In this document: in pieces, positions 8,859 to 35,964 of the stretch | Numbering within the stretch: the first letter of the stretch is position 1 | Layout: each line of letters starts with the position of its first letter | DNA from: Streptomyces sp. CA-210063 | Lineage (GTDB): Bacteria; Actinomycetota; Actinomycetes; Streptomycetales; Streptomycetaceae | Length of the DNA: 64,000 bases | Reading direction: 5' to 3' | Assembly (NCBI RefSeq): GCF_024612015.1 | Contig: NZ_CP102512.1 | Coordinates: 9,424,001-9,488,000, forward strand | Position numbers and translations under genes: made by a program | The notes under the pieces: model-generated | The model's database searches: none | What the model was told of the DNA's origin: nothing | What the model saw: only the letters and a program-made list of their open reading frames with translations

Positions 8859-9079
8859 GAGAGCTCCAGGGGGAGGAGAGCGCCGGTGGCACAAGGGCGG
8901 GGGTGGCGTGCGGCGCCGCCGCGTCCGACGCCGGTCAACGGATCGCTCGGTGGATCCGCCTCAACGGACGATCGGTCCCGGACGGAAGCCAAGGGCTTCC
9001 GGCGGAGAGGAGCGGGGACCGAGGACGGCGTCAGACGTGCGGGTGGTTCGGCGCGCAGGCCAAGAGGGATGAAAAGGCG
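8859..9079 (-). promoter_or_regulatory. Leader/attenuator region of the ssu operon
   Basis: These 221 bp lie between the leader peptide stop and the ssuC ATG and contain no other convincing gene. Two hairpins can be drawn: GGAAGCC/GGCTTCC around AAG at 8984-9000, and GGATC/GATCC arms at 8940-8957. With the Cys-ending leader peptide upstream this fits a cysteine-responsive attenuation or translation-gating leader. The pairing scheme itself is an inference. Confidence 0.5.
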
Positions 9080-11358: not shown

Positions 11359-14130
11359 TCAGTCCATCAGACGCAGCCCGTCCCCGAAATCGACGCGCGC
11401 GAGGTCGGCGCGCGAGACGATGCCGAGCTTGGGGAAGACGTTGGCCAAGTGATAGCCCACCGTACGAGGACTGATCAGCAGCTGTGTCCCGATCTCCCGG
11501 TTGGTGAGGCCCTCCGCGGCCAGCCGTACGACTCTCGCCTCCTGCGCGGTCAGGACCGTTGCGGCGTCCCGGTCCGGTGCCGGGTCGCGGCGCACGTGCT
11601 GCCCGCTCAGTTCCTGTTCGGCCCGGGTGCGGGCGAGTAGAGGGGCCGCGTCGAGTCGCCGGAAAGTCTCCGCGGCTTCCGCCAGCTGTGCCCGGGCGTC
11701 GGTACGGCGGCGGGCCCGCCGCAGCCACTCGCCGTAGAGCAGGCGGGTGCGGGCGTAGGCGAAGGGCCGCGACTGGGCTCCGGGGACATCCAGCGCGAGC
11801 CGGAAGTGCTTCTCCGCCTCCGGTCCGGACTCCAGCAGGGCATGGACAAGGTGCAGCGCGGAGACCGCCCAGGGGGCGTTGGACCGCTCGGCCCACCGCC
11901 GCAGCAGCCGCGCCTGTTCCTCGGCCGTCGCCCGCTGCCCGGCCTGGACCGCGGCCTCGGCGGTGTCCGGCGCGGCCAGCAGCGCGATGGTGGGGTGCGC
12001 CGCGTGGTGCCCGTCCTCGGTCAGCCGGACCAGGCGGCCCACAGCCTCCTCGGCCCGGCCGCCGAAGAGCGCCGACATACCGAGGCTCCACTGCGCGGCC
12101 GCGCTGAAGACGCGCCCTCCGCGCGGCATCCAGAGCTCCATGGTCCGGGCGGCATGGTCCGCGACGGTCCGCTCATCGCCTCGCACGGCGGCCAGCCATC
12201 CGAGACAGTTGCGGTACTGCGACGCCGAGTGTTCGTCGCCGATCTCCTGCGCCACTCGGAGTCCCTCGATGGTGTTCGCCTCGGCCAGGGCCCAGGCTCC
12301 CTGCGCGAGGTCGACCGTCACGGTCTGGGCCAGCGCCTGGGTCAGGGCCGTCACCTGGTCGGTGTGCCGAAGCGTGTCGATCCCGCGGTGGAGGCCCTCC
12401 CCCAGGACGTGCTCGATGCCCCAGGCCACTCCCAGCGGCGCCGGTGGCATCAGAAGCCAGGAACTGTTGCTGAGCCGGCCGAAGCCCTCACCGCTGAGAG
12501 CCACCACCTGGTCGCGGTCATCGGCGCCGCAGTCCTGGTCCTCCGTCCACCATGCGCGCAGCAACGGCAGCAGACTGGCGTTCGGGAAGTCCCCCTGCGA
12601 GAGCCGCCGCTCGAGCCGGTGGAGAGCCTCGCGCTGCAGTTCGCCGTGCCCGGCCGCCCACGCCGCCCACAGCGCCATGATGCCGAGTGTGAACGCCTGC
12701 TCGGGATCGGCCACCCGCTCCATGTCCCGGGCAAGCCGACCGCAGGCGGTTTCGAGATGGCCGTGCGTGAACTCGATCAGCCCACGCAAGCCCTCACTGA
12801 GGTCCGCGACCTCGACTTCGGAGGAGATCCGTTCGGCCCGCGCCAGCATGTCCCGCGCCACATCGGCCTGGCCGGCCGCCCAGGCCGCCTTCGCTCCGAG
12901 AGCCAGCCGCCTGGCCGCGTCGTCCGTGGAGGGGGACAGCGCCGCCGCGCGTCGCAGAGCACGGCCGGCCGTGGCGCAGCCGCCGCGTGCCCAGGCTCGA
13001 TCGGCCGACTCCTCAAGCAGCCGCGCCACCTCCCCGTCAGGTCCGCCCGCGGCTTCCACAGCCGCGGCGAGGTGCCACGGGCGCAACTCGTCGGCGTTCT
13101 CGCCGGTCAGCACGGAGGCGAGCGCGCGATGAACCGCCTGCCGGTCCGCGGGCGGCGCCTCCTCGTAGACCACCGCCCCCATCAGCTGGTGGCGCAGGCG
13201 GATACGACCGTCCGGACGCGTGGTGAGCAGGCCCGAGTGCAGGGCCTCGTCCCACGCGACCGAGTCGAGGCCGAGCACGAGACTCGCCTGGCACACGGTG
13301 TTCCGGTCGCTGCGGTCATCGGCGGCGATGAGCAGCAGCGCGGTGCGGGCGGGCGCGGACAACCTCTCGATGCGGGCACGGAAGGCGCGGCGCAGGCGGG
13401 GCCCGACGGCAATCTGCTCACCGGCGAGAGGGTGCGTCGAGATATCGCCCGCCGCCATGGACGTGGGCAGTTCCTGGAGCGCGAGCGGATTGCCGGCCGC
13501 CGCGCGGACCGTGCGGCGGATCACCGCCTCGTCCGCGTGCGGAGCGACGGCAGCCGCGAGCAGCCGGGCGTCCTCGTCGTCCAGCCCAAGGACCTCCATC
13601 GCCGCCAGCTCCTCCCACGGTCCCTCGACAGGATCGTCGTGTCCGGTCAGGAGCATGGCCACGGGCTCGTCGCGCAGGCGGCGGGCAACGAAGGCCAGGC
13701 ATCCTGCGGAGGGCTCGTCCAGCCAGTGGGCGTCGTCGACGGCGATCAGCACCGGCCGCTGCCCGGCCAGCTCGCCGACGAGCGTCAGTACCGCCACGCT
13801 GATCAGGAACGGGTCCGCCACGTCACCGCTGATGCCGAGCGCCCCGTTCAAGGCGTTGGCCTGCGGCTCGGGGAGTGTGCTGATGCGGTCCGTCACCGGC
13901 CACAGCAGTTCGTGCAGGCCGGCGAACGCCACCCCCGACTCCAGACGGGTACCCCGGCATCTCACGACGGTGAAGTCGCCGGCAGCTGCTTCGGCCACGT
14001 GGTCGAGCAGGGCGGTCTTGCCGATACCCGGCTCGCCCCACACCATCAGAGCCGCCCCGGCGCCTTGACGAGCGGCGTCAAGGATCCGGTCGAGGGCTGC
14101 CTGCTCCTGGCGCCGTCCATACAGGTTCAT
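11359..14130 (-). CDS. LAL-type LuxR transcriptional regulator
   Basis: A 923-aa large ATP-binding LuxR regulator. An N-terminal AAA/STAND ATPase has a Walker A WGEPGIGKTALLDH near residue 31 and a Walker B VLIAVDDAHWLD. A long helical repeat region follows, then a C-terminal LuxR helix-turn-helix (LTAQEARVVRLAAEGLTNRE then TVGYHLANVFPKLGI). Such proteins activate promoters when a ligand releases the ATPase switch. It is divergent from an MFS exporter, and the shared 226-bp gap has three TGACAGAT words. Control of the exporter and the downstream oxidoreductase is likely but inferred. Confidence 0.92.
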   Translation of the reverse strand: MNLYGRRQEQAALDRILDAARQGAGAALMVWGEPGIGKTALLDHVAEAAAGDFTVVRCRGTRLESGVAFAGLHELLWPVTDRISTLPEPQANALNGALGISGDVADPFLISVAVLTLVGELAGQRPVLIAVDDAHWLDEPSAGCLAFVARRLRDEPVAMLLTGHDDPVEGPWEELAAMEVLGLDDEDARLLAAAVAPHADEAVIRRTVRAAAGNPLALQELPTSMAAGDISTHPLAGEQIAVGPRLRRAFRARIERLSAPARTALLLIAADDRSDRNTVCQASLVLGLDSVAWDEALHSGLLTTRPDGRIRLRHQLMGAVVYEEAPPADRQAVHRALASVLTGENADELRPWHLAAAVEAAGGPDGEVARLLEESADRAWARGGCATAGRALRRAAALSPSTDDAARRLALGAKAAWAAGQADVARDMLARAERISSEVEVADLSEGLRGLIEFTHGHLETACGRLARDMERVADPEQAFTLGIMALWAAWAAGHGELQREALHRLERRLSQGDFPNASLLPLLRAWWTEDQDCGADDRDQVVALSGEGFGRLSNSSWLLMPPAPLGVAWGIEHVLGEGLHRGIDTLRHTDQVTALTQALAQTVTVDLAQGAWALAEANTIEGLRVAQEIGDEHSASQYRNCLGWLAAVRGDERTVADHAARTMELWMPRGGRVFSAAAQWSLGMSALFGGRAEEAVGRLVRLTEDGHHAAHPTIALLAAPDTAEAAVQAGQRATAEEQARLLRRWAERSNAPWAVSALHLVHALLESGPEAEKHFRLALDVPGAQSRPFAYARTRLLYGEWLRRARRRTDARAQLAEAAETFRRLDAAPLLARTRAEQELSGQHVRRDPAPDRDAATVLTAQEARVVRLAAEGLTNREIGTQLLISPRTVGYHLANVFPKLGIVSRADLARVDFGDGLRLMD

Positions 14131-14207
14131 TTGCTTGAAATATTAAGGGCCCACCGCGGCCGGGGCTACTCACGACACCGCCTGTTCACCGCCGCTTGGC
14201 AACCCCT

Positions 14208-14330
14208 TGACAGATGGGGTGACAGATCCGCTTGCGGCCTTCCGCCCGTAGCGTCGGGCGTGATCACTGCGCGCCCCCCCACCGGATTGAGGACGACATG
14301 GCGAGGGCCATGCCCTCTGTTGATCTGTCA
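14208..14330. promoter_or_regulatory. TGACAGAT repeats in divergent promoter
   Basis: TGACAGAT occurs at 14208-14215 and 14220-14227 as direct copies 12 bp apart, and as the inverted word GATCTGTCA at 14322-14330, just before the MFS start. A TTGACA box overlaps the first copy at 14207-14212. The copies could be sites for the LAL regulator on the other side. Confidence 0.45.
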
Positions 14331-14356
14331 CTCGTTCCGTCTGACCTAGGAAAGTC

Positions 14357-18986: not shown

Positions 18987-20101
18987 TCAAGCGGCCTTCT
19001 GGCCGCTGCTGCGAGACCGGCGGGCAGCGCGCACCGCTCCGGGCGGCAGGCCCTTCGGCAGCTCCCAGGCGTCCGGGCCCGGGACGTACGAGCGGCCGAC
19101 GGTGAAGCGCGTGAGCGAGAAGTCCGACCGCTGCTCGTCCGGGTAGTGGTTGTTGAAGTTCTCGACCCGGACCAGCTCCAGGTCGTTCGCGGCGCAGTGG
19201 TCGCGAATCCACCTCACGGCCGCGTTGGCGGCGTCGTCCTGGCCTCGGCCAGCCAGTGTGACCATGCCGAGGAGATCGGAGTCCGGCCGGGTCTGCGCGC
19301 CTACGGCCCAGGTGTCGCCCGACTGGCGGGCGCCGTGGGCGAAGAGGACTGCAAGGCAGTCCTGCCAGACCGTCTCCGGGACCACCAGAGGGGTGCCGAC
19401 GTTGAAGGGGACGTCACGTGGAACGACGGCCATGACCGACTCTGCCTCGGCCCGCATCATCTCGGGCAGCGCGCTGGTGTAGGTGTCGGAGGTGATCTGG
19501 CGTGAGGAGTGGCCGAGCTTCTCCTGGACCACCTTGATGTCGTTCCCAGCGAGCAGAGACAGAGTGGCGGCGAGGTGGCGCAGATCATGGAGGCGGACCG
19601 GGGGCAGACCGGAGAGCTCCACGAGACGGGCGAAGCGGCGGGATATCCAGTCGGGATGGAGTGCCTCGCCGTTCTCGAGCGTCCACACGCGGCCGGTCTC
19701 GACGTAGGCGTCGCCCCACTCCCGGCGCTTGCGCTCCTGCTTGGCGCGGAAGCGGACGAGGTTGTCGCCGGACTCCAGGCTCAAAGTGACGGTGCGGATG
19801 CTGTCGGCCTTCGGAGCTTCGCCGTACAGCTGGTAGGCGACCTCGACGATCTGCTGTGAGATCCGCATCCAGAGCGCATCGGTGCTGACTTCCGTCCAGG
19901 GCAGGGCGGCCATCTCGCCGCGGCGGGGGCCGACGAAGATGAAGGTATGCCAGAGCTCGTAGAGCCAGTCATCCTTGACGGAGTCGAGGAACTGGCCAGT
20001 CAGCTCCGGCGTCCAGACCATGACCGGGCCGGGCTTCTCGCCCGTGTGCTTCCAGTGCTCGACACGCTCGGGCGTCCAGACCAGGGGCTTCGGTTGGGTG
20101 A
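18987..20101 (-). pseudogene. N-truncated phage tyrosine integrase
   Basis: The catalytic half of a tyrosine recombinase: FVGPRRGEMAAL (first Arg), RLHDLRHLAATL (His-x-x-Arg), KLGHSSRQITSDTYTSAL with the late His and the nucleophile Tyr. An actinophage-type C-terminal extension follows. Integrase-like residues (PLVWTPERVEHWKHTGEKPG) continue upstream to about 20100, where the frame enters phage-tail sequence and ends. The N-terminal arm-binding and core-binding domains, about 200 residues, are therefore missing. It lies next to att core copy 2 and once mobilised insert B. Excision by this protein alone is unlikely. Confidence 0.85.
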
Positions 20102-20470
20102 CACCAGCCCGGGACCGTCCACGAAGCCGTCCGCTACGTCACCCCCTACCTCTGGCTCAACTACAGCTCGATGGGCCTCTCCGGCTCCACGGCCGTCATG
20201 CAGGTCGACACCGTCGCCATCGAGGCGCTCAAGACCGGCACGGTCGACTCCACCAACCTGGTCAGCGGCTCCGTCACAGCCGCGTCGCTCGCCGCGGATT
20301 CGGTGATCGCCGGGAAAGTGGCCGCCGACGCCATCACAGGCCGAGAGATCGCGGCAAACGCGATCACCGCATCCGAGATCGCGGCTGCGTCGATCACCAC
20401 CGACAAACTGCTCGCCGGAGTAATAACCGCCGACAAGATTGTCGCCTTGGCCGTCACAGCGGAGAAACTA
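20102..20470 (+). pseudogene. Phage tail/structural protein, first fragment
   Basis: An open frame starting abruptly at the integrase junction (GTVHEAVRYVTPYLWLNY) and running into short repeats such as AADAITGREIAANAITASEI and ITTDKLLAGVITADKIVAL. Such AxxIT.DKI repeats occur in tail-tip and tail-fibre-like proteins of actinophages. The frame is cut at about 20468 by the IS630 element; matching repeats resume at about 22950. The original start is lost. Confidence 0.7.
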
Positions 20471-21576
20471 AGCGGCTTTGCTGAAGTTCGTTGCTGATCC
20501 TTTGATGCGTGTGCGTTGTCGGGCGAGAGCCTGGTCGACGGCGTTGCCGACTGCCTCAGCGGTGGTGTGGACGCGCTCGGGGTAGTCCTCGTACTTCGCC
20601 GAGCGCCATATCCGCTCGATGTCGTTGAGCTCGGGGCTGCGGGGCGGCAGGTAGAAGAGTTCGACACCGACCGCGGCCAGCTCCTCGCGGCGGCCTTTGA
20701 ACGCCCTGGCCACGTGTGCCGAGGCGTTGTCCAGGACGACGGTGCAGGGACGGGCGCGCTTCCAGCCCGCGGGCGGTTCCTCCAGTCCCGCAGCCCCGCC
20801 GGGCAGACCAGCCAGCTTCGTGCACACGAACTCCAGCAGCATGGCCGCGTCGATCTTGCCGCAGGTCTTCTCCCACACCAGGTCGGCACCCTGTCCCACC
20901 GACAGGGCTCCCAGCACGTTCACGCGCCGGCCCTTCTTGTCCTCACGTGGCACCACGGCCCGCTGCCCTGCCTGTGACCAGGTGTATCCAGTGGGCATGG
21001 TCGGCGCGAACCCGCTCTCGTCGAGGAAGTACAAGTCGCTTACGCCGGTGTCCGCCGCCAGCCGTAAGGCCGTAAGTCCTCCAGCTGGGCCCGTGCGGCC
21101 TGCTGGAGGACGGGGTCGGCCTTGTGCCGCAGGGTGTCCCGCGTTCGTTTCCACCGGAACCCGTCCCGGTGGAGCAACTCGGTCAGCCAGGCCGCACCGA
21201 CCCTCACCCCGCGTTCGGCCCGCAGCCAGTCGCACAGTGCTGCGGCTGTCCAGGTACGGCCATGACACGCGGACTCATCCAGCAACGCGGCCAGGGCCTC
21301 TCGGTCCTCGCGGGTGATCGAGGGCGGGCGGCCTGGGCGCGGGGCATCGGCCAGGGCTTCGAATCCACCGTCCTCGAAGCGGTGGACCGCATCTCGCACG
21401 GTGACGTTGTTACATTCGAGCAGATCAGCAACCTGGGGCGCGGTCATACTTCGCGCAATCAGCCGGATGCACTCCAGACGCAGCCGGGCATGCGGCGCGA
21501 GATCACGCGCCCGCAGACGCTCACGCACCTCACGTTCCTGATCAAGCGTCAACTTCACGCGCAGGATCTTCGGCAT
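20468..21576 (-). CDS. IS630 transposase, two overlapping frames
   Basis: The first frame (ATG 21576) gives the helix-turn-helix part: ARSMTAPQVADLLECNNVTV, EDGGFEALADAPRPGRPPS and the winged second domain. The second frame supplies the DDE catalytic part: FLDESGF, TVVLDNASAH and SPELNDIERIW. They overlap at 21040-21268. The join needs a -1 shift near GACTTACGG (about 21075) after AQLEDL, to continue TALRLAADTG. Some IS630 members use programmed frameshifting, but no A6 slippery run is present, so mutation is equally possible. Confidence 0.8.
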
Positions 21577-22948: not shown

Positions 22949-23827
22949 TAGCCGCGCTCGCCGTCACCACGGACAAGCTGAACGCCTTGTCCGTTACCAC
23001 CGACAAGATCCCGTCAACGCGGTCACGGCCACGAAGATCGCGGCCGGCTCGATCGAGGCAAGCCACATCAAGGCCGGGGCGATCACCGCTGACAAGCTGG
23101 ACGCCGACGCGATCAATGGCAAGGTCGTTACCGGCGCGACCGTACGCACGGCTGCGAACGGCAGACGCCTGGTCCTCAACCCGTCGTCCGACTTCCAGCC
23201 CGCTTTGGATATGTTCTCGGACTCGTCGTCCGAGACGGCCCCCGGCCGGGTACGCGCCTCGGTCATCGACATGGGGACGTGGGTGCAGCCCGAGGTCGTT
23301 CTGGAGTCCCCCTCGTGGCCAGCTCCAGGACAGACGTCACCCTCCGCTCCCCGGAACTGAACGGCAAGGGCCTCGCACGACTGGAGCCCTCCGACCAACT
23401 CGACGGCTACGCGCACGTCACCGCCCAGAATGGCGGCCTCAACGACGACTCCGCGATCACCCTGTACGGAGCGCGTGGCAGCAACGCGGGCGGCGGCTAC
23501 CACTCCATGGTGATCAAGGGCGCCGGCGTCACCTGGTACAGCAGCACGCGGCAGATGACCTTCGCAGATGGGGTCCTGCGAGCCCCGAACATCATCACCG
23601 GCGTCGTGACGATCACCCCCGTTGCCAATACGCCGACGTCGATCACCGTAAGCGGGTTGAACGTCTCCGGCACAATTCATCGCGCCTTCGTCACCGCCTC
23701 CTCGGCCGTGCCCGGCACGGTAGCGGAATGCTCCGCCACCAACGTCACGGCGAGCGGTCTGACCGTGTGGATCAATCGTGCGAACACCACCAACACCACC
23801 GTCTGGTACCTCATCGTCGGGAGCTGA
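22949..23827 (+). pseudogene. Phage tail/structural protein, second fragment
   Basis: Resumes with ALAVTTDKLNALSVTTDKI, the same repeat type as the first fragment. It then shifts frame (VNAVTATKIAAGSIEASHIK and ADKLDADAINGKVVTGATVR), and shifts again near 23315 to reach RTDVTLRSPELNGKGLARLE and the C-terminus ending VWYLIVGS at 23827. The last part resembles a phage receptor-binding/tail C-terminal domain. At least two frameshifts plus the IS630 insertion make it non-functional. Confidence 0.75.
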
Positions 23828-24300: not shown

Positions 24301-26853
24301 TCAGGCTTCCCATGAGGGGCGCTGGGTTTTGAACTGGGAGAAGATACGCTCGAATACGTCGTCGTCTTCTGGCTGTGCCGATGTCTGCATGTCCTGGTCA
24401 TCCGCGAAATCCCATGGGGGGTGCTGGGTTTTGAACTGCGAGAAGATACGCTCGAATACTTCATCGCTTGCTGATTGCGCCGATGTCTCCATGACCTGGC
24501 CGTCGGCGGCAGCCCATGGGGGGCGCTGGGTTTTGAACTGGGAGAAGATGCGCTGGAATACGTCGTCGTCTTCTGGCTGTGCCGATGTCTGCATGTCCTG
24601 GTCATCGGCGGCAACACGTGCTGACACATTCGCGCTGTTCTCGGCGAGTACAGCATCGGCGGCCTCTTCTCGCCAGCGGGTGAGTTGGCTTTGGGTAGAG
24701 AGGGTGTGGGGGTGGTCTGGTCCCAGTACCCGCAGCATGTCGTCGAGGAGTTCTGCGAACGCGGCTGCGGCGCTGCCTGGGTTTCCGGCTTCCCCTGTCC
24801 AGCGGGCGAGTCGGCTTCGGGTGGCGAGGGTGTGGGGGTGGTCTGGTCCCAGTACCCGCAGCATGTCGTTGAGCAGCTCCGTGAATGCGGCTGCGGCACC
24901 CCTTGTATCGCCTGCTGCTCCCCGCCAGCGGGTGAGTTGGCTTCGGGTGGTGAGGGTGTGGGGGTGGTCTGGTCCCAGTACCCGCAGCATGTCGTCGAGG
25001 AGTTCTGCGAATGCGGCTGCGGCGCTGTCGGGGTTTCCGGCTTCCCCTGTCCAGCGGGCGAGTTGGCTTCGGGTGGTGAGGGTGTGGGGGTGGTCTGGTC
25101 CCAGTACCCGCAGCATGTCGTCGAGCAGCTCCGTGAATGCGGCTGCGGCACTGACAGGATCCCATGCCTCGCCTCTCCAGTCGGCGAGGCTGGCCCTGGT
25201 GGTGAGGGTGTGGGGGTGGTCTGGTCCCAGTACTCGCAGCATGTCGTCGAGGAGGTGTACCAGGGTAGCCTCAGCACCCTCGGGGTCCCCGGCCTCTCCC
25301 CGCCAGCGTGCAAAGCTGTGCCGGGCTGTGAGGGAGTCCGGATGGTCGGGGCCCAGATGACGGATGGCGGTGCGTGACAGCTGCTCGAAGTAGCTGGCGG
25401 CGACGGCTACCTGCCCGCTGTCCCCGATGCTTCGGCCGAAGCGGTACAGCAGGTCATGTGCATCAGGCCGATACAAACCTTCCTCGACATGCCGGATGAG
25501 AGCCTCGGCGTTGGCGCGCAGGACCTGAGCCGTGTCACGTTCGTTGTCGTGCCAAATGGCCATGAGGGCGTCGGCCGCGGTGCGTGCGAACTGGTGTTGC
25601 TGTTCGGGAATGAGAGTGTCTCTTGTGGCGCGCTGAATGAGTTGGTGAATACGTACGGTCTGGTGCGGCGTTGTAGGGGCGTGATCGATGAGACTGAGTC
25701 GGTGCAGTGCGCGCAGTGCTTGCACCGCGTCGCGGGAGGAGACGGCTTCCGCGGCCAGATTCTGGCTGGTTTGCGTGCGGTACTGCGAGAGATGAGCCAG
25801 GGCGGGGGCGCAGGTCAGCACATCCTCTGGGATGCCGTTGGCATCCAATAGGGCAAGTAGGTGGAGCATGGGGCGGGCCAGGCCGACGGGGCGGAGGGAG
25901 TCGGCGCGGTCGATGGACAGGGACCAAGCGGCGGCGAGTGGGAGGACCTGGTCATCGGGTAAGCGGTCCGGGGTGGCGTCGGTGAGCGTAGTGGTTCGGT
26001 CGGCCAGCAGGGCGCGGTAAGCGGCCACAGTCTCGTTGGAGTCGATGAGGTAGGCGGCGGCCTGGGCTAGGGCCAGGGGCAGGTATCCAAGATCTGAGGC
26101 AAGAGCGGCGAGCTGATCGACAGGTTCACTGCGACCAAGTGGGGCCAGGGAGGCGGTCAGGTAGGCGACAGATTCGGCCGCGGTAAACAGACCGACCTCG
26201 ATCGGACGGCGGCCTTGGCCGCTTAAGGCGGCATCCCGGCGGCGGGTGGTGACCAGGGTTCGGCCGTACGGGCTGGCGGGCGGCCACAGGCCGCGCAGAT
26301 GGTCCGGGTCGGCAACGTCGTCCAGGACGATCAGCCAGCGGCTCGCCCGATGGCCACCCTTCGGAGCCAGCCACGCAAGAAACGTCCGCGCGGCACTTTC
26401 AGGGTTCTCAGGATCTCCCTGACACAGTTCGACGCCTGCCTGGGCGTAATTGGTCACCACAGATAGGCGATCGCTGGCGGTGATCCAGACCAGAATGTCA
26501 AGGCCGCCAGCCTCCCAGGAGGTGCGTGCATAGTCGGCGGCGAGCTGGGTCTTACCCACTCCGCCGGTGCCGACTACCACCCCCGTCGGCGCGGCCTGTG
26601 TAGCAACTGCGGCGTTGCCTTCCTCAAGTGCTTCGGCCAGACGGGCAACCTCGGCGCGCACCTGGAAACTGGCCGCCGCCGGAGGGATTGTCCCAACCTG
26701 GTGTGGCCACGCAGCTGAAGGCCGGGGCCGCGCGTAGTAATTGTGCTGGACTCCCAGTACAGGTCCGTGGAACGTGCTGTGGCGGAAATCGACCAAGTCA
26801 CCCCCGACGGTGTCCCCTTTTGCGGTGACCTCCGAGGACCGTCCCTGTTCCAC
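24301..26853 (-). CDS. NB-ARC/TPR STAND protein with two tandem-repeat arrays
   Basis: An 850-aa signal-transducing NTPase. The N-terminus has the HSTFHGPVLGVQHNYY segment seen in Streptomyces STAND proteins (commonly a GPVVQA-type motif). An NB-ARC domain follows, with Walker A VVGTGGVGKTQ at about 95-102, Walker B WLIVLDDVAD, an RTLVTTRRR sensor and GYLPLALAQAAAYL (the GLPLA motif). Then come winged-helix and TPR segments. Six 42-aa TPR-like units (LGPDHPHTLTTRSQLARW type) end the sensor, followed by three 34-aa units carrying DDVFERIFSQFKTQRPPW. There is no obvious N-terminal effector. GTG 26853 has GGAG upstream; TTG 26865 is an alternative. STAND proteins of this build include phage-defence sensors; that role is only a hypothesis here. 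Confidence 0.85.
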   Translation of the reverse strand: MEQGRSSEVTAKGDTVGGDLVDFRHSTFHGPVLGVQHNYYARPRPSAAWPHQVGTIPPAAASFQVRAEVARLAEALEEGNAAVATQAAPTGVVVGTGGVGKTQLAADYARTSWEAGGLDILVWITASDRLSVVTNYAQAGVELCQGDPENPESAARTFLAWLAPKGGHRASRWLIVLDDVADPDHLRGLWPPASPYGRTLVTTRRRDAALSGQGRRPIEVGLFTAAESVAYLTASLAPLGRSEPVDQLAALASDLGYLPLALAQAAAYLIDSNETVAAYRALLADRTTTLTDATPDRLPDDQVLPLAAAWSLSIDRADSLRPVGLARPMLHLLALLDANGIPEDVLTCAPALAHLSQYRTQTSQNLAAEAVSSRDAVQALRALHRLSLIDHAPTTPHQTVRIHQLIQRATRDTLIPEQQHQFARTAADALMAIWHDNERDTAQVLRANAEALIRHVEEGLYRPDAHDLLYRFGRSIGDSGQVAVAASYFEQLSRTAIRHLGPDHPDSLTARHSFARWRGEAGDPEGAEATLVHLLDDMLRVLGPDHPHTLTTRASLADWRGEAWDPVSAAAAFTELLDDMLRVLGPDHPHTLTTRSQLARWTGEAGNPDSAAAAFAELLDDMLRVLGPDHPHTLTTRSQLTRWRGAAGDTRGAAAAFTELLNDMLRVLGPDHPHTLATRSRLARWTGEAGNPGSAAAAFAELLDDMLRVLGPDHPHTLSTQSQLTRWREEAADAVLAENSANVSARVAADDQDMQTSAQPEDDDVFQRIFSQFKTQRPPWAAADGQVMETSAQSASDEVFERIFSQFKTQHPPWDFADDQDMQTSAQPEDDDVFERIFSQFKTQRPSWEA
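24321..24626. repeat. Three 102-bp tandem repeats (34 aa each)
   Basis: Units start with GCTGGGTTTTGAACTG at 24321, 24423 and about 24525, exactly 102 bp apart. They code the last part of the STAND protein. Units 1 and 3 are much closer to each other than to unit 2, which suggests gene conversion or recent duplication. Confidence 0.85.
24690..25370. repeat. 126-bp tandem TPR-coding repeats
   Basis: GGTCTGGTCCCAGTAC recurs at about 24716, 24842, 24968, 25094 and 25220, a period of 126 bp (42 codons). A sixth, more diverged unit follows. High nucleotide identity between units points to recent duplication and possible copy-number change without frame loss. Confidence 0.85.
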
Positions 26854-27157
26854 CGCCCGCTCCAATCTGGCCTAAATGGCATCTAGACCATACCCGCCCG
26901 AGCTATCTCCAACTACAGCCCGCGATAAAGCTGTTACCCAACTCGCCGTCCTGGGAGGCTACCGAGCTGGACCTCCGCCACCCGCGGGTTACCAGATGTC
27001 AGAAGCCGCAGTTCTCATCGCGTTGAGCAGGGGGCTTGATCGTGGTGTTGTTCCCGAAGCTCGTTGACGAACGATTCCCCTCCTTGCCGTCGCTGAACAT
27101 GGCGATATGGCAGGGGTTAGTGGGGCGGAAGTTGGGGCGTCGGCCGAGCGTCGGCTC
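26854..27157. other. Promoter-side gap of the STAND gene
   Basis: No gene is recognised. The stretch is somewhat less GC-rich than its neighbours, lies upstream of the STAND gene, and ends at the TTAG target duplication of the IS701 transposon. Confidence 0.4.
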
Positions 27158-27185: not shown

Positions 27186-28499
27186 TCATGCTTGAGCGGC
27201 TTGTCGCTGGTAGTGGCTGGTCTGGGATCGGGCTTGGTGGCGGCGTCGCCAGTCGGACCAGCCGAGCCGGTGGACAGCGTCCAGGGCGGGGCGGACCACG
27301 AGCGCGATGAACAGGTGCTGGATCTCGTTGCCGGTGAGCGGTATGCGGGCGTCGGATGCGGGGTGACGGGCGTGTTCGTGTGCTCGGACGATGGCGAGGA
27401 AGGCGTGCGCGAGCATGGCCAGGGTGACCCAGCGGGACCAGGACGTGTAGCGGCGGACCTGGTGCTCGTCCAGTGCGGCTAGGCCCTTTCCGGCCTGGAA
27501 GAACTCCTCCACCCGCCACCTTGATCCAGCGACGCGCACCAGCTCGGCCAGCGGCACCGGGCGGGGAGAGTAGCAGCGGTAGTAGGCCAGTTCGCCGGTG
27601 GTGCGGTTGCGGCGGATCAGCAACTGGCGGCTGCCGGGGGTGGGGTCGGCGAGGTCGATGACGGCCCAGTTGGAGAAGCGGTGGCCCTTCGCCCCGGTCC
27701 CTGCGGACAGCTTCTGCCAGGCCCGCTTGGGTATCTTCTGGGCCAGGGTGTCGGCGCGGAACTTCCCCGCGCCGGTGGTGACTTCGTGCGAGCAGGCCAC
27801 CGCGAGGACGTAGCCGGTGCCGCGTTCCTCCAGCACGCCTCGCAGCTTGGGGTTGCCGCCGTAGACTTCGTCGCCCGCAACCCATGCGGCCCGGTGGCCG
27901 GCGTCCTGGAACCGGGCGACCATGCGCGCGGCCAGCTCCGGCTTGGTGGCGAATGACGTCTCCTTGCCGAGTCCGGCAGCGAGGCAGCGGTCGGGGTCGG
28001 AGGTCCAAGAACGCGGAACGTACAGTTCCCGGTCCACCGCGGCGTGCCCGCGCCGACCGGCGTAGACCAGGTAGACAGCGACCTGAGCGTTTTCGATCAG
28101 CCCGGCCGTGCCGGTGTACTGACGCTGGACGCCGACCGTGCGGGTGCCCTTCTTCACGTCCCCGGTCTCGTCGACCACCAGCACCACCTGGTCGTCGTGA
28201 AGGTGCTCCACCACGTAGCCGCGCACGTCGTCGCGGACGGCGTCGGCGTCCCACTTGGCCCGGCCGAGCAGGTGCTGCAGTCCGTCCGGAGTGGTGTCCC
28301 CGGCCCATTCGGCGATCGTCCAGCAGTTCTTGCGCGGCAGGTCCGAGAGCGGGCCCAGCACCAACCGCCTGGCCCGGCGTCGGGGTTCGACCCGCGCGAA
28401 CCGGCCCGCGATACGGCCCATGGCCACCTCGAACGCCTCCCGCCAACGAGCGGGATCTATGCTGTGGCCTGCGGCCACCGTCTCATCGTTACTCCACAC
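27186..28499 (-). CDS. IS701-family transposase
   Basis: A 437-aa DDE transposase: VVLVVDETGDVKKG (first Asp), WVAGDEVYGGNPKLRG (second Asp) and GSRWRVEEFFQAGKGLAALD (Glu), in the order and spacing of IS701. Length is normal for the family. Its stop codon overlaps the inner end of the left terminal repeat. It appears intact and could move the whole 2.3-kb unit. Confidence 0.92.
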   Translation of the reverse strand: MWSNDETVAAGHSIDPARWREAFEVAMGRIAGRFARVEPRRRARRLVLGPLSDLPRKNCWTIAEWAGDTTPDGLQHLLGRAKWDADAVRDDVRGYVVEHLHDDQVVLVVDETGDVKKGTRTVGVQRQYTGTAGLIENAQVAVYLVYAGRRGHAAVDRELYVPRSWTSDPDRCLAAGLGKETSFATKPELAARMVARFQDAGHRAAWVAGDEVYGGNPKLRGVLEERGTGYVLAVACSHEVTTGAGKFRADTLAQKIPKRAWQKLSAGTGAKGHRFSNWAVIDLADPTPGSRQLLIRRNRTTGELAYYRCYSPRPVPLAELVRVAGSRWRVEEFFQAGKGLAALDEHQVRRYTSWSRWVTLAMLAHAFLAIVRAHEHARHPASDARIPLTGNEIQHLFIALVVRPALDAVHRLGWSDWRRRHQARSQTSHYQRQAAQA

Positions 28500-29246: not shown

Positions 29247-29497
29247 GGGATGCCAGCGTATCCCACGGTTTTGCAGGCCCGGCCGGGGCGGGCACGGTCT
29301 GCCACGAACGATTCTTGCAGAGGGGCATGGGGCCGCACCCGGCACTGGCGACTGCGTCGGATGAGCAGTCGCAGTCTCTCCGCGGCCCGCGCCGCCCACC
29401 GAGCCGGACAACGGTCACACCACCGGCAAGATCACGATCTACGGCTGGAGTATTAGACTGAACTCCACGGCGCGGGGCCGCGATGGAGGACGACACC

Positions 29498-29821
29498 GTG
29501 ACCGAGCCCCAGGGCCAGGACCCCACCCCGTGGGAACTGCTGCGGGCCATGCAGCACATGCGCGATGACCTGCGCGCCGACTTCGCCGCTCTCGGCGCGA
29601 GGCTCGCCGAAATGGTGACAAAGATCCAGTACGACGCGGATCGGCGCACGGACGAGCTGAAGATCAAGGCCGTCGAGGATGACATCGCCGCCATGAAGCG
29701 CGAGCGCGAGACGGAACGCCAAGAGGCCCGCAACGTAAGGCGGTTGGCCGTGACTGCCCTGGTCGCCCCCGTAGCGGTTGGAGTGATCGTCGCCATCGTG
29801 ACCGGCAAGCTCGGACTGTAG
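29498..29821 (+). CDS. Holin-like small membrane protein of the prophage
   Basis: 107 aa from GTG 29498, which has GGAGGA seven bases upstream; an ATG at 29483 overlaps that site. The layout is an acidic N-terminus, a charged coiled coil (residues about 15-80, with AAMKRERETERQEARNVRR) and one C-terminal membrane helix (TALVAPVAVGVIVAIVTGKL). This resembles XhlA/holin-accessory proteins of actinophages. An endolysin follows. It would help endolysin cross the membrane if the prophage were active. The IS701 unit sits 42 bp upstream. Confidence 0.65.
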   Translation: MTEPQGQDPTPWELLRAMQHMRDDLRADFAALGARLAEMVTKIQYDADRRTDELKIKAVEDDIAAMKRERETERQEARNVRRLAVTALVAPVAVGVIVAIVTGKLGL

Positions 29822-29848
29822 GCTCAGCACATCGGGCGCGGGGGAGAA

Positions 29849-30053
29849 CTAGTGCCGCGTCAGCCAAGGTTCGCCCCGTCGCGACGCCCGGCACGCTCCC
29901 CCATTCTCGGCTTCGCTCGAACGGGAGGGGCCCCCACCGCCGCACCGGCCGAAAGCCCAAGTACGTCCAGTACGAGGACTTCCGGCCGGCACGCCGAGAG
30001 CACGCACCGGACGCCGCTCCTTGACGGGCAAACCTTGGCTGACGCGGCACTAG
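29849..30053. mobile_element. 205-bp MITE in the lysis cassette
   Basis: 28-bp inverted repeats (29849-29876 and 30026-30053, one mismatch) begin and end with CTAG, which may be the target duplication. The inside has no gene and contains further G+C-rich stems. The outer TGCCGCGTCAGCCAAGGTT is typical of a transposon end. It lies between the holin-like gene and the endolysin. Confidence 0.7.
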
Positions 30054-30062
30054 GAACGCGCC

Positions 30063-30837
30063 ATGCCTGATCTCTGGCTGCCTGGCGCCGAGCGACACCG
30101 CACCCACCGACACCGCACCCACCGACACCCAGTACGACCCACGCGTCATCTGGCACATCACCTGGGACAAGAACGCCACGGCGGCCAAGCCGGCTGACCT
30201 GGTGCCGTTCGACAGGCTCGTGCAGTACTTCACCGACGGCGGCAAGGGAGCTGCACCGCATCTCCTCTGGGACCCCTTCACCGGCAGGACCGCCCAGTTC
30301 TATCCCGCGAACAGCCGGTCCAAGTCGCTCGTCGACACCACAGGCGGTACCCGGACCAACCGCACCGGACGGGTGTGTCTCCAGGTCGGAACGCTCTTCT
30401 TCCCCCACTGCCGGGTGAACGGCCGGACGTACGCGACCGTCCGGGACACCCCGGCCAAGGGTCTCGACAAGATCCTGGCCTGGGCGCGGAGTTGGGGGGT
30501 CCCGGACGTATGGCCGATGGGCTCCCCGACCTGGGAGGCGAACCGCAGCGAGCACACCTGGGAGACCGAAGGCGGGCACTACGGCCACGGCCAGACGCCC
30601 GAGAACAAGCACACCGACCCTGGTCCGATGCCGAAATGGCCCGGCGCCACGACGGTGCCGAAGCCGGGCCCGCCGGCGTTCCCCGGCCGCAGCGCCTTCG
30701 GCCCCGGCAAGTCGAACGCCTCGATTCTCCCTTCCGGCCGTGCTCCGCGCAGTGTGCAGCTCCTGCGGCGCTACGCGAGCATCGATCTCCAGGGCGTGCA
30801 AATCCGCTCTCAAATACCAGAAATAAATTCCCGGTAA
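30063..30837 (+). pseudogene. Prophage endolysin, frameshifted
   Basis: MPDLWLPGAERH at 30063 is the usual start of Streptomyces phage amidase-type endolysins, but the frame then differs from the rest (TDTQYDPRVIWHITWDKNAT onwards, about 30112-30837). The amidase part shows LVPFDRLVQYFTDG, GRVCLQVGTLF, VPDVWPMGSP and the conserved HYGHGQTPENKHTDPG. The protein ends in unrelated residues where an IS1380 scrap adjoins, so a C-terminal wall-binding domain is probably missing. A 15-bp tandem repeat (30092-30130) lies at the frame break. Confidence 0.75.
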
Positions 30838-32069: not shown

Positions 32070-32265
32070 CCCAACCCCCTTCGGGATCCCGGCCTATCGC
32101 CTCCGCGCTTCTCCCCTCGTGTGATGCGTCGCGCGGTCTTGCGTGTAGAAGATGTGGACGATTGGTGTGGTGCCCGTGGTGCTCGTCCTAGGTATAGTCG
32201 CGACGAGGTTGTCCAGCATGGGCATGCCATGGTGGACAAACAATGCCTGACCATGGGGGTTGGCC

Positions 32266-35200
32266 GTGGGGCGTCCTGAGCGTGGGCTGGATCCCAAGGC
32301 GGGGCCGCTTGAGCAGTTCGCTTGGGAGCTGCGGCAGTTACGGGTGGCCGCGGGGCGGCTGAGTTACCGGGAATTGTCCAGGCGCGCGCATTTCTCGGTG
32401 ACGGCGTTGTCCGAGGCGGCCGGTGGGCGGGAAGTGCCGAGCCTGGCCGTCACGCTGGCGTATGTGGAGGCGTGCGGAGGAGACCGGGAGGCGTGGGAGG
32501 AGCGGTGGCGGCGGCTGGCCGCCGAGTTGGCCTCCGCCCAGTCCGCCCAGTCTGCCCAGTCCGCCGAGTCCGTTGACGCGGCGGCAGACGCGCCGTATCT
32601 GGGACTGGCGACCTTCGAGCCGGGAGACGCCGATCGTTTTTTCGGGCGCGAGCGGCTCGTGGGGGAGTTGTGCGCCCGGCTGGGCGGGACCGCGTTTCTG
32701 ACGGTGTTCGGTGCCTCCGGGGCAGGGAAGTCCTCGGTGCTGAGGGCGGGCCTTTTGCCCGCGGTCCGGGCGGGAGCCGTCGAGGGCGGCCGGGACTGGC
32801 CGACCGTACTGCTCGTGCCCGGCGAGCGCCCGGTGGAGGAACTGGCCATCCATCTGGCGAACCTGAAGAACATCGCGGCGAGTTCGCTGTGTGACGCGCT
32901 GACCGCCGGTCCCGAGGGAATCCGGCTCACCGTCCGTCAGATCCTGACCGGTCTCCCCGAGACGGCGCGCCTGCTGATCGTGGTCGATCAGTTCGAGGAG
33001 GTCTTCACACTCTGCGGGGACGAGCGGGAACGCACACGATTCGTCGCCCTGCTCCTGGCCGCTGCAAGGGAACCCCGGGCACGGGTCGTGCTCGGGGTGC
33101 GGGCCGACTTCTACGCCCGCTGCGCGGAACATGCCGACCTCGTGGCGGCGCTCGACGGCCGGCAAGTGCTGATCGGACCCATGGACGAGGCCGATCTGCG
33201 CCAGGTCGTCACCCGACCGGCTAAGCGGGAAGGGGTGAAGGTCGAGCCCGAACTGGTCGAGGCCGTGGTGAGCGACGCCCTCGGCCAGCCCGGGGCGTTG
33301 CCACTGGTCTCGCACGCGCTACTGGAGACCTGGCGCAGACGGCGGGGGACGGCGCTCACAGCGGCCGGTTACCGGGCAGCGGGCGGGGTGCGCGGGGCGA
33401 TCGCGCAGAGCGCCGAGCGGGTCTACAGCACGCTCGATGCCGTACAACAGCGGCTCTGCGGCCATCTGTTCGTACGGCTGACCGCGCTGGGCGAGGGTAC
33501 GGAGGACACACGCAGGCGGGCACCCCGTGCGGAGTTGCTGGGCGGCTCGGATCGGGAGGCGGTGTCCGTCGTACTGGACCAGCTGATCGCGGCGCGCCTG
33601 GTGACGGCCGACGAGGAATCCGTGACGGTCGCGCACGAGGCTCTCATCCGCAGCTGGCCGCGACTGCGCGCCTGGCTGGCGGAGGACCGCGAGCTGCTGC
33701 GTGCCCACCGCCGGCTTACCGAGGCCGTGGCCGAGTGGGAGCAGCACGGCAGGGATGAGGGCTATCTGTTCCAGGGGGCCCGCCTTCGGTCCTGGGACGG
33801 GCGCGGTCTGGAGCGGTTCAACGACGCGGAGCGGGCCTTCCTGGACGCCTGCCGCTCCCGCCGCGCGCACGAACAGAGGAGCCGCCGAAGACGGGTGCGG
33901 CTCGGCGCGGCCGTGCTGGCGACAGTGGTGGCGGTGGTGGGCGCCCTGGCCGGCGCGACGCTGATGCAGGTGGAGCGGACGGCGGCGGAGCGCAGCCGAG
34001 CCACGTCCCGACAACTGGCCGCCGAGGCGCGCAGCGCGCTGGAGGCCGACCCTCGGCAGGCCCGGCTTCTGGCCCGGCAGGCCTATACGGTGGCGCCGAC
34101 CGCGGAGGCTGAGTCGGTGCTGCGTCAGGCCGTGGCCGACGACCGGTTGATCGCCAAGCTCCCCGGCAACCGCGGCCGGGCCCTCGGCGTGACCTTCAGC
34201 CCGGACGGACGTCAACTGGCCGACACCAGCGCGGACGGCACCGTGCGGGTGTGGCAGTGGGCCAACGGCCGGGTCACGGGCAGCACACCCCGCGTGCTGC
34301 GTGGGCACGAAGGCGAGGCGTGGAGCCCGGCGTTCAGCCCTGACGGGCGGTACCTGGCCACCGCGGGCCTGGACGGCACGGTACGGGTGTGGGCCGTGGG
34401 CGGCACCGCCAAGCCGCTGGTGCTCCAGGGCCACAAGGGTCCGGTATGGACCGTCGCGTTCAGTCCGGACGGGCGGCAGGTAGCCAGTGCGGGCGACGAC
34501 GGGACAGTGAGGATCTGGGACGCCCGGGGCCAGGGCACCCCGACCATCCTCCGCGGGCACAAGGGTGCGGCGGTGGGCGTGGCGTTCGATCCGCAGGGGC
34601 GACGGCTCGCCAGCAGCGGCCACGACGACACGGTACGCATCTGGGATCTGTCGGGACGGCGCGTACTGACCGTGCTGCGTGGCCACGGCCATGACACGAA
34701 TGACCTCGCCTACAGCCCCGACGGCACACGGCTCATCAGCGCCAGCATTGACGGCACGGCCCGGGTGTGGGACACCGACGGCAAGGCGGACCCGGTCGTG
34801 CTGCGCGGGCACAGCGGCACGGTGGAAGGTGCGGCCTTCAGCCGCGATGGACAGCTGGTGGCCACCGCCAGTGACGACGCCACGATCCGGGTCTGGAATC
34901 CCTCCGGCGGCGGGAATCCGCTCGTCCTGCGCGGCCACAAGGCCGTGGTCTGGGCCGCCTCCTTCAGTCCGGACGGTCGCCACCTGGCCACGGCCAGTTC
35001 GGACGGCACTGTACGGATCTGGGATCCGCGCGGTCCCGGTGACCCGGTGATGCTGCGCGGCCACAAGGGCGCGGCATGGACCGTGGACGCGGGCGGCCAG
35101 GGCGGACGGCCCGTCGTCAGTGGCGGCGAGGACGGCACCGTACGCATCTGGGATCCGGCGCGACAGCGCGCCGTGCGCGTGCTGCGTGGGCACGACGGGG

Positions 35201-35964
35201 AGGTCCTCGGCCTCGCCGTCAGCCAGGACGGACGGCGGGCAGCCAGCGCCGGCGCGGACGGCACGGTACGGATTTGGGACCTCACAGGTGGCACCGAACC
35301 GGTGGCGGTACTGAACGGCCACAAGGACGGCGCATGGTCCGTGGCCCTCAGCTCCGACGGACAACGGGTCGCCAGCATCGACGGTGACGCGACCCTGAGA
35401 GTCTGGCATCTCACCGAAGGCCACCGCCCGGCATTCGTCCGCCCTTCCGCAGACGGCACCAACCTCCGGTCCGTGGCCTTCAGCCCGGACGGACAGAAGG
35501 TGGCCACCGGCGGGCACGAGAAGACGCACGGCACCGTGCGGATCCGGGACGCGCGCAACGGGCGTCACCTGCACGTCCTGCGCGGGCACCGGGGGCTGGT
35601 GTGGACGGTCGCCTTCAGCCCCGACGGCCACCACCTGGCCAGCGGCGCCGACGACGGCACCGTACGCATCTGGGATCTCACACAGCACCGGGATCCACTC
35701 GTCCTACGGGGCAACCAAGGATTCGTGTGGTACGTCGCCTTCAGCCCTGACGGCGACTGGATCGCCAGCACCGGAAAGGACGGCACCGTACGCCTTTGGC
35801 GCACCCACACCGGAGGAGAAGCCCTCACCTTCGAGGACTTCGGCACATCCGTGGAGAGCGTCACCTTCGCCGACGACAGCCGGCACCTGGCCACGTCCCA
35901 CGGCGACGGCACGGTCCGCCTCTGGCACTGCGACGCCTGCGGACCGATCCAGCACTGGCTTTGA
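32266..35964 (+). CDS. XRE-nSTAND1-WD40 membrane protein
   Basis: 1,232 aa. An XRE-like helix-turn-helix covers residues about 15-70 (LSYRELSRRAHFSVTALSEA). An nSTAND1 ATPase follows, with FFGRERLV, Walker A FGASGAGKSS near 149, Walker B LLIVVDQFEEVF near 237 and HEALIRSWPRLRAWL. One TM helix lies at about 545-567, then a coiled stretch. Fourteen WD40 repeats (638 to the end; SPDGRxLASxSxDGTVRIWD type), enough for two seven-bladed propellers, complete the protein. GTG 32266 gives VGRPERGLDP, the normal start of this family; TTG 32260 is possible. It would sense something at the membrane and signal through the ATPase; the target is unknown. A decayed relative lies downstream. Confidence 0.92.
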   Translation: MGRPERGLDPKAGPLEQFAWELRQLRVAAGRLSYRELSRRAHFSVTALSEAAGGREVPSLAVTLAYVEACGGDREAWEERWRRLAAELASAQSAQSAQSAESVDAAADAPYLGLATFEPGDADRFFGRERLVGELCARLGGTAFLTVFGASGAGKSSVLRAGLLPAVRAGAVEGGRDWPTVLLVPGERPVEELAIHLANLKNIAASSLCDALTAGPEGIRLTVRQILTGLPETARLLIVVDQFEEVFTLCGDERERTRFVALLLAAAREPRARVVLGVRADFYARCAEHADLVAALDGRQVLIGPMDEADLRQVVTRPAKREGVKVEPELVEAVVSDALGQPGALPLVSHALLETWRRRRGTALTAAGYRAAGGVRGAIAQSAERVYSTLDAVQQRLCGHLFVRLTALGEGTEDTRRRAPRAELLGGSDREAVSVVLDQLIAARLVTADEESVTVAHEALIRSWPRLRAWLAEDRELLRAHRRLTEAVAEWEQHGRDEGYLFQGARLRSWDGRGLERFNDAERAFLDACRSRRAHEQRSRRRRVRLGAAVLATVVAVVGALAGATLMQVERTAAERSRATSRQLAAEARSALEADPRQARLLARQAYTVAPTAEAESVLRQAVADDRLIAKLPGNRGRALGVTFSPDGRQLADTSADGTVRVWQWANGRVTGSTPRVLRGHEGEAWSPAFSPDGRYLATAGLDGTVRVWAVGGTAKPLVLQGHKGPVWTVAFSPDGRQVASAGDDGTVRIWDARGQGTPTILRGHKGAAVGVAFDPQGRRLASSGHDDTVRIWDLSGRRVLTVLRGHGHDTNDLAYSPDGTRLISASIDGTARVWDTDGKADPVVLRGHSGTVEGAAFSRDGQLVATASDDATIRVWNPSGGGNPLVLRGHKAVVWAASFSPDGRHLATASSDGTVRIWDPRGPGDPVMLRGHKGAAWTVDAGGQGGRPVVSGGEDGTVRIWDPARQRAVRVLRGHDGEVLGLAVSQDGRRAASAGADGTVRIWDLTGGTEPVAVLNGHKDGAWSVALSSDGQRVASIDGDATLRVWHLTEGHRPAFVRPSADGTNLRSVAFSPDGQKVATGGHEKTHGTVRIRDARNGRHLHVLRGHRGLVWTVAFSPDGHHLASGADDGTVRIWDLTQHRDPLVLRGNQGFVWYVAFSPDGDWIASTGKDGTVRLWRTHTGGEALTFEDFGTSVESVTFADDSRHLATSHGDGTVRLWHCDACGPIQHWL

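Follow-up and report, generated by a model that had tools for sequence, protein, structure and literature searches.

A STAND receptor gene of Streptomyces sp. CA-210063 with C-terminal tandem repeats that match the tail peptide of a von Willebrand A protein

The 64,000-nucleotide stretch of DNA analysed here (G000:C1:9424001-9488000, hereafter the window) belongs to the 10.86 Mb, single-contig genome of Streptomyces sp. CA-210063 and contains a gene for an 850-residue protein of the STAND class, with an NB-ARC domain and tetratricopeptide (TPR) repeats, a receptor-like architecture akin to that of immune sensors in animals and plants. As judged from sequence comparison, the repeat that makes up the C-terminal tail of this protein is a peptide copied from a different signalling system, in which it forms the C-terminus of a VWA (von Willebrand A) protein encoded at a TerY-P-like locus, and not a sensor unit. 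Through the tail and a motif at its N-terminus, the STAND protein may link receptor signalling and the TerY-P-like system. The reading preferred here, held tentatively and rated somewhat short of an even chance, is that the tail acts in docking and control, as a multivalent element that wires the STAND protein to the TerY-P-like phospho-signalling module, and that the STAND protein would signal to an effector of the nucleoside phosphorylase (PNP) type.

A search of the genome with the whole STAND sequence retrieves other STAND proteins and, within an unrelated frame of 254 codons, a match of 23 codons (E-value 1.4e-4). This frame encodes a 253-residue VWA protein that ends in GDEVFEKIFSQFKTQRPAWEA followed by the stop codon, and the tail array alone as the query matches its C-terminus with an E-value of 4.2e-6. 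The core common to the STAND tail repeats and the VWA C-terminus is DDVFERIFSQFKTQRPxWEA; the final STAND copy ends in DDDVFERIFSQFKTQRPSWEA followed by the stop codon, with the terminal W-E-A-stop as in the VWA protein. Hence the 34-residue repeat, which had been put down as being of unfamiliar type in an earlier sequence-only reading of this DNA, is the VWA C-terminal tail peptide. When the three STAND copies are aligned with the VWA tail, 13 columns show no variation. Over the 18 core codons, copy 3 has 8 codons identical to those of the VWA gene, 7 synonymous and 3 replaced, and therefore the peptide appears to have been kept while the codons diverged (the respective counts are 7, 6 and 5 for copy 1, and 7, 7 and 4 for copy 2). 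The signature FxxFxTQ is invariant across nine tails, including that of the STAND relative P0006, which makes its Thr a candidate phosphosite. In the AlphaFold2 (AF2) model of the VWA protein, the tail forms a helix (residues 234-246; predicted local distance difference test, pLDDT, of 89 and 72 by block) followed by a poorly predicted QRPAWEA. The AF2 model of the STAND protein (mean pLDDT 76.7) is mostly confident for the NB-ARC domain and the TPRs, with low confidence for the first 45 residues and for the tail from residue 751. The structure prediction that had been recommended for the repeat does yield helices at the three cores, in residues 766-770, 789-810 and 831-844, at low confidence (block pLDDT 30-48).

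The VWA domain of the tail-bearing protein is recognised by Pfam (E-value 2.8e-6, 28.1 bits against a cut-off of 23.8), and the residues of its metal ion-dependent adhesion site (MIDAS; DxSxS...T...D, here D32, S34, S36, T113 and D150) are invariant in alignment A3. The VWA gene is followed by a PP2C gene (PF13672, 3.2e-45) and a kinase-like gene, the product of which has, by eye, a CxxC motif and a hydrophobic segment at the C-terminus and weakly resembles PD-T4-6 in PADLOC (9.9e-9). Nearby lie genes for TelA (1.8e-85) and for a further VWA protein, and the VWA locus of another genome (G011) likewise contains TelA and a kinase-like gene. The TerY-P triad is described as consisting of a TerY-like VWA protein, a PP2C and a kinase-zinc ribbon protein (PMC11090510, PMC7159879), and for some GAP1-N2 conflict systems of actinobacteria a link to sets of kinase, PP2C and standalone vWA is described (PMC7159879). 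With a MIDAS-containing, tail-bearing VWA protein, a PP2C and a kinase-like protein encoded in a row near TelA, the locus resembles this description and can be called TerY-P-like.

The genome tallies of the tail are lower bounds, given a loose first screening step, and come from overlapping genome sets in which the VWA class of tail bearers was assigned by sequence patterns. The tail profile matches at least 16 of 199 Streptomyces genomes (20 matches: 16 VWA proteins, the 3 STAND copies and 1 other) and at least 32 of 392 (36 matches: 31 VWA proteins, 3 in this STAND, 1 small protein and 1 unclassified, in G205). Among 394 genomes spread over the class, three contain the tail, all of them Streptomyces (the G725 match, L078, is unclassified). 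The VWA protein itself is present in 12 of 101 genomes, ten of which have a recognisable tail; the VWA protein of G015 (51% identical) has a degenerate tail, and G091 (L045) is unclassified. A scan of 84,980 named genomes yields 76 pattern stretches, of which 49 are confirmed tails, 48 in VWA proteins and 1 in another protein. The other bearer is one and the same protein in each tally, P0122 of S. pseudovenezuelae, which is 174 residues long, has an N-terminal hydrophobic segment and no Pfam match, and bears the VWA tail near its C-terminus (L046, ~8370-8891, + strand); outside the tail, nothing in the 100 further Streptomyces genomes searched matches it, the eight remaining matches being VWA tails. 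The non-VWA tail bearers seen are this STAND, P0122 and P0006. The two genomes compared in this respect, those of this STAND and of P0122, each hold the VWA gene as well (p 0.007 if independent, with n=2 and noticed post hoc). Seven genomes were compared, six of them picked for having a VWA gene nearly identical to the one here. Their closest STAND match is 61% identical, and none of the seven (0/7) has a STAND with the tail, which bears out the expectation that the gene in this form is not a core gene. Tail copy number also varies, as anticipated: there are three units here, and one plus an apparent truncated second in P0006 (by eye).

The STAND gene lies in an intact open reading frame (ORF), the longest version of which (24301..26865, minus strand) has 854 codons from a TTG. 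The GTG 12 bases downstream of this TTG is the best candidate start, because it is preceded by GGAG and the relative P0006 starts at the same residue. The protein has the features of STAND/NLR-like receptors in the expected order, an NB-ARC domain with a P-loop (the GxGGxGKT columns are invariant in 34 aligned sequences), a helical/winged region and superstructure repeats (TPR_12, 3.1e-28), and the Pfam domains, the P-loop and the fold matches all support the sequence-only reading in its view of a STAND receptor with a TPR sensor. The ORF, Pfam and Tandem Repeats Finder (TRF) also agree on an intact gene with 126-bp repeats followed by three 102-bp repeats; the two arrays, described in that reading as nested, are consecutive instead. 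TRF reports a period of 102 with 3.0 copies at 24309-24613 and a period of 126 with 4.6 copies at 24673-25254 and 5.3 copies at 24693-25356. Self-identity is 0.83 at a shift of 102 (0.26 +/- 0.04 at other shifts) and 0.83 at a shift of 126 (0.29 +/- 0.04), far beyond chance in both cases. The 102-bp units are 81-91% identical in DNA; the string LGPDHP is present in the six 42-residue TPR units, of which units 2-6 are 71-94% identical in DNA. Given that the units comprise 34 and 42 codons, copy-number change in either array stays in frame, as had been claimed. The base composition of the gene (GC 0.655 and third-position GC 0.72, compared with a GC of 0.69 for the whole window and a third-position GC of mostly 0.78-0.95 in other likely window genes, a list itself selected for high value) fits acquisition from elsewhere without proving it.

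The N-terminus of the STAND protein contains the motif GGDxVDFRxxTFxGPVxG, which PNP_UDP_1 enzymes carry at their extreme C-terminus and divergent STAND proteins at their N-terminus; the earlier statement that the protein has no obvious effector domain overlooks this pairing motif. A loose pattern of the motif occurs in 15 of the 76 homologs with at least 25 residues before the WPxxxG block, ten of which resemble the motif of this protein. The motif profile gives 49 matches, spread over 15 of the 150 Streptomyces genomes searched. Among 30 loci examined, 14 distinct ORFs carry the motif 1-13 residues before the stop codon, and 10 of 11 C-terminal-motif proteins are PNP_UDP_1 by Pfam (L192 has no match). 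In all six regions picked for two close matches, a C-terminal-motif ORF is paired with a divergent P-loop STAND that bears the motif N-terminally; four of these ORFs were scanned with Pfam and all four are PNP_UDP_1, L209 and L210 being outside the scan. Thus, the relatives have the layout of bacterial amyloid signalling (BASS) pairs, with the motif at the receptor N-terminus and the effector C-terminus of neighbouring genes. The pairs of L209-L214 share GGDxxDFRGGTFxGPVxG and could represent an amyloid-signalling family outside those described. Close relatives of the STAND (L215, L216 and L146) share much the same core but begin with quite different short sequences, which gives the impression of swapped motifs.

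No effector gene is found beside this STAND: within the window, the motif profile matches nothing but this STAND itself, and none of nine neighbouring ORFs scanned with Pfam (0/9) is PNP_UDP_1. A DDE_5 transposase occupies the side where the paired relatives keep the effector gene. The genome has four motif matches, namely this STAND, one PNP protein, a broken STAND fragment (L143) and the weaker L133; six others (L131, L132, L134-L137) look like chance on reading. The only intact motif-bearing PNP is encoded at G000:C1:3156569-3157441 (L142:3070-3942) and matches the PN-superfamily effector model of PADLOC (1.3e-19). The search for partner proteins that had been suggested thus turns up a motif-bearing PNP elsewhere in the genome and none next to the STAND gene. 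Pairing of the STAND with this PNP in trans is a guess, because that PNP has its own adjacent STAND.

Under the preferred reading, the STAND protein would be an NLR-like receptor without a built-in effector, acting in three steps. First, the TPR superhelix, the tail or both would sense a trigger, and NB-ARC oligomerisation would thereby be released. The N-terminal motif, once clustered, would then template the same motif at the PNP_UDP_1 C-terminus and activate a nucleoside-phosphorylase-type effector, as the family layout suggests; here the one candidate found is the distant PNP, the local slot being held by the transposase. Because the C-terminal repeats are copies of the VWA tail helix, they are proposed as three docking sites for a binder of the VWA tail, which could be the kinase, the phosphatase or the VWA assembly.

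Several observations weigh against this reading. The STAND is itself outside the triad, 5.8 Mb from the VWA gene; the kinase-like protein scores 21.1 bits with Pkinase, under the Pfam cut-off of 31.7; and the STAND that adjoins the distant PNP lacks the motif. The conservation of the tail speaks for the reading, with a mean over 56 distinct VWA proteins of 0.98 in the last 20-residue windows, compared with 0.91 for the whole protein, a value that equals and does not exceed that of the MIDAS block; it is, however, inflated by a sample mostly fetched via the tail. Tail-bearing STAND proteins number two (P0001 and P0006) among the 120 homologs listed out of 2,660 (from the best 8000 candidates), and P0006 has one degenerate copy in addition to its apparent truncated one. 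Two VWA-bearing genomes (G253 and G295) encode STAND relatives, 60-61% identical, without the tail. A search of 5.8 billion proteins with the tail region matches only the STAND itself, and the tail alone is not significant at database scale (E-values of 0.10 for a VWA fragment and 0.17 for the small S. pseudovenezuelae protein).

The alternative that survives best, although unlikely, is an integrated decoy, in which an invader protein that attacks or blocks the VWA tail would bind the STAND copies and trip the receptor. In plant NLRs, integrated domains act as decoys. The origin of the tail peptide in a different signalling protein and the placement of its copies, in triplicate, after the sensor TPRs speak for bait; TerY-P-like modules are tied to defence (PMC11090510), and conflict systems of multicellular prokaryotes are described as acquiring protein modules from other cellular subsystems (PMC7159879). 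Against this stands the finding that a single lineage bears the tail. Scans of viral contigs for the tail (3 and 44 pattern stretches) confirmed no copy; a phage mimic would show one, whereas a decoy needs none. We know of no invader protein that targets the VWA tail. The fuller version, in which the triplicated tail is bait for an attack on the module and the fired receptor would act through the prion-like motif on the distant PNP effector, is rather unlikely.

It is improbable that the tail is a neutral relic, a VWA-tail fragment fused by recombination, amplified by slippage and devoid of function. The rarity of tail-bearing STAND proteins, the state of the P0006 tail and the abundance of insertion sequence (IS) elements in the region speak for such an origin, but the 13 invariant columns, the retained terminal WEA-stop and the excess of synonymous changes over replacements in each copy (6-7 against 3-5) speak against it. 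Still more doubtful is an autoinhibitory ligand, whereby the tail helices would fold back into the groove of the STAND's own TPRs and keep it off until displaced. These TPRs are closest to the kinesin light chain (KLC) type both in sequence (PDB 4y6w, 2.2e-10, and KLC1, 6.3e-8, by phmmer against PDB) and in fold (KLC1, 1.4e-8, by Foldseek with the AF2 model), the KLC groove is described as binding short linear motifs and as taking part in an autoinhibition switch, and the make-up of the tail includes aromatic residues and a W next to acidic ones. However, the same peptide is kept on the VWA protein and the small protein, in neither of which TPRs were found, and AF2 predicts no docking of the tail, as follows from its low confidence there.

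A variable sensor of phage defence, with array copy number tuning ligand recognition, is very improbable: the TPR units are near-identical and in frame, and by pattern count the 120 listed homologs have 1 to 13 in-register units, but such repeats are common in the family and not special here (an adjacent pair at least 85% identical is present in 56 of the 120). Finally, the STAND can hardly be FxsT, the TPR protein of the FxSxx-COOH peptide-modification system: it narrowly passes the family cut-off (NF040586 of NCBIfam, 305.9 bits against 300), yet it has the extra tail and no Fxs operon around it, the four FxsB genes above the cut-off (370 bits; at 0.95, 2.04, 5.49 and 7.39 Mb) are each within ~6 kb of another STAND match, and the window, with a weak radical-SAM match (28.8 bits, ~47143-47487), has no FxsB above the cut-off, so that this membership is rejected by location.

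Table 1. Features of the STAND gene and its surroundings, in window coordinates
Feature	Position	Strand	Evidence or remark
Integrase-like ORF	18987..20021	(-)	Pfam PF00589, 1.1e-11
Tail-fibre fragment	20171..20497	(+)	PHROG 892 tail fiber, 2.5e-11; best PHROG 26466, of unknown function, 6e-15
Transposase, two overlapping frames (helix-turn-helix and DDE_3), interrupts phage remnant	20468..21624	(-)	
STAND gene, 850 residues	24301..26853	(-)	GTG start (best candidate), Shine-Dalgarno-like GGAG at 26860-26863
Array of three 102-bp repeats; VWA-tail peptide in every unit, [DE]VF[EQ]RIFSQFKTQ[RH]PxW	24309..24613	(-)	TRF
VWA-tail peptide cores	24508-24582, 24406-24480, 24304-24378	(-)	One per 102-bp repeat
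Six 42-residue TPR units (126 bp), KLC-like	24667..25422	(-)	TRF, phmmer, Foldseek
DUF7779, after NB-ARC	25600..25878	(-)	Pfam PF25000, 2.8e-8
NB-ARC NTPase	26023..26577	(-)	Pfam PF00931, 1.5e-9, 37.9 bits against a cut-off of 23.5
N-terminal effector-pairing motif (GGDLVDFRHSTFHGPVLG)	26734..26814	(-)	Predicted disordered; profile A6, of which this sequence is a member, E-value 6.2e-14
DDE_5 transposase, directly upstream of STAND gene	27186..28499	(-)	Pfam PF13546, 2.2e-43
Small phage ORF	29483-29821	(+)	PHROG 38457, 1.3e-13
Endolysin	30202-30837	(+)	PHROG 17214 endolysin, 6.6e-46

The tail-fibre fragment, the endolysin, the small phage ORF and the integrase-like ORF point to a phage remnant around the STAND gene (Table 1). 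The phage ORFs at 29483..30837 are 57-60% identical to Streptomyces phages mu1/6 and VWB. The gene does sit between tail and lysis genes, as the sequence-only reading had it, but, judging from its gene content, the prophage is not intact: it is a decayed remnant ridden with IS elements and further broken up by TetR, Dabb and LysE genes. Similar TTDKL tail-fibre-like repeats, seen by eye at 20171-20497 and ~22950-23020 (+ strand), flank the transposase/TetR/Dabb insert, so that the fibre gene looks split by it. ORF 11806-14349 has no PHROG match, which carries little weight given that this ORF is likely on the wrong strand. Just downstream of the endolysin, at 32260-35964 (+ strand), a 1234-residue nSTAND1 NTPase with WD40 repeats is encoded (PF20703, 1.2e-134). 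An NB-ARC/TPR relative in two pieces (42% and 35% identity), with an internal TGA and apparently broken, is located at ~50908-53065 (- strand).

Relatives of the STAND protein are found in 164 of 72,556 plasmid records, 139 of the 164 being from Streptomyces. Matches in phage records are limited to 3 of 50,697, all of them Wolbachia phages aligned over the TPRs at 22% identity, and no relative is confirmed in IMG/VR, a scan sensitive to close relatives only; a phage-cargo family is rejected on these counts. In G253, two STAND matches with identical scores are located on opposite strands towards both ends of the 11.5-Mb contig (380366-382381 and 11158452-11160467 of C1), the pattern that terminal inverted repeats would give. 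None of the PADLOC 2023 models matches the STAND at an E-value of 0.001 or lower, and none matches the VWA protein. A role of the STAND in phage defence is one that we infer.

The receptor class, the pairing principle and the near-identical TPR units are of already known kinds. NLR/effector pairs of the BASS type were reportedly described by Dyrka et al. in 2020. As described in PMC7889193 and PMC12261475, such pairs resemble the present case in having a short motif at the STAND N-terminus and the effector C-terminus of neighbouring genes, as in the relatives of this STAND; BASS1-10 are, however, defined with Bell effectors, whereas the motif analysed here goes with PNP_UDP_1 enzymes and is likened by layout, not by BASS profiles, no effector adjoins this STAND, and the amyloid state of the motif is putative. 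The strings GPV and FRGG are absent from the text of the BASS paper PMC8086366, which carries little weight since the motif logos were not covered. The PNP_UDP-associated motif (PUASM) of fungal NLRs (PMC9815663) likewise consists of a C-terminal motif of a PNP_UDP effector matched by the NLR N-terminus, with a different, fungal sequence (FxGxGxQxxGxGxF, compared with GDxxDFRxxxFxGPVxG here). The overall fold of the AF2 model resembles those of a TPR-sensor STAND (PDB 6mfv, E-value 3.9e-10) and Apaf-1 (PDB 3sfz, 2.4e-8), at a low sequence identity of 11-15%. These two proteins have other effector regions. Near-identical KLC-type TPR units are known from the nearly identical TPR-like repeats of Podospora (PDB 4y6w and 4y6c), which are fungal and for which the structures comprise the TPR repeats only. 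The new element is the multiplied foreign signalling tail fused onto a STAND: no STAND of this tail type is named in the open-licence literature searched, where no query was directed at STAND proteins with a VWA tail, and queries there on FxSxx, integrated decoys, bacterial NLRs, Streptomyces TerY and NB-ARC/TPR repeats returned nothing specific.

If the tail functions, it would tie an NLR-like receptor to a TerY-P-like phospho-signalling module at the level of sequence. The tail is a short, defined peptide of ~20 residues, and its binding partner would show how the VWA protein of the triad is recognised. The tail would likewise serve as a test of whether bacteria, as plants do, equip immune receptors with decoys derived from their own signalling components. 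The PNP_UDP/STAND motif pairs lead to a second prediction that can be tested directly, namely a prion-like connection with an effector of the nucleoside-phosphorylase type.

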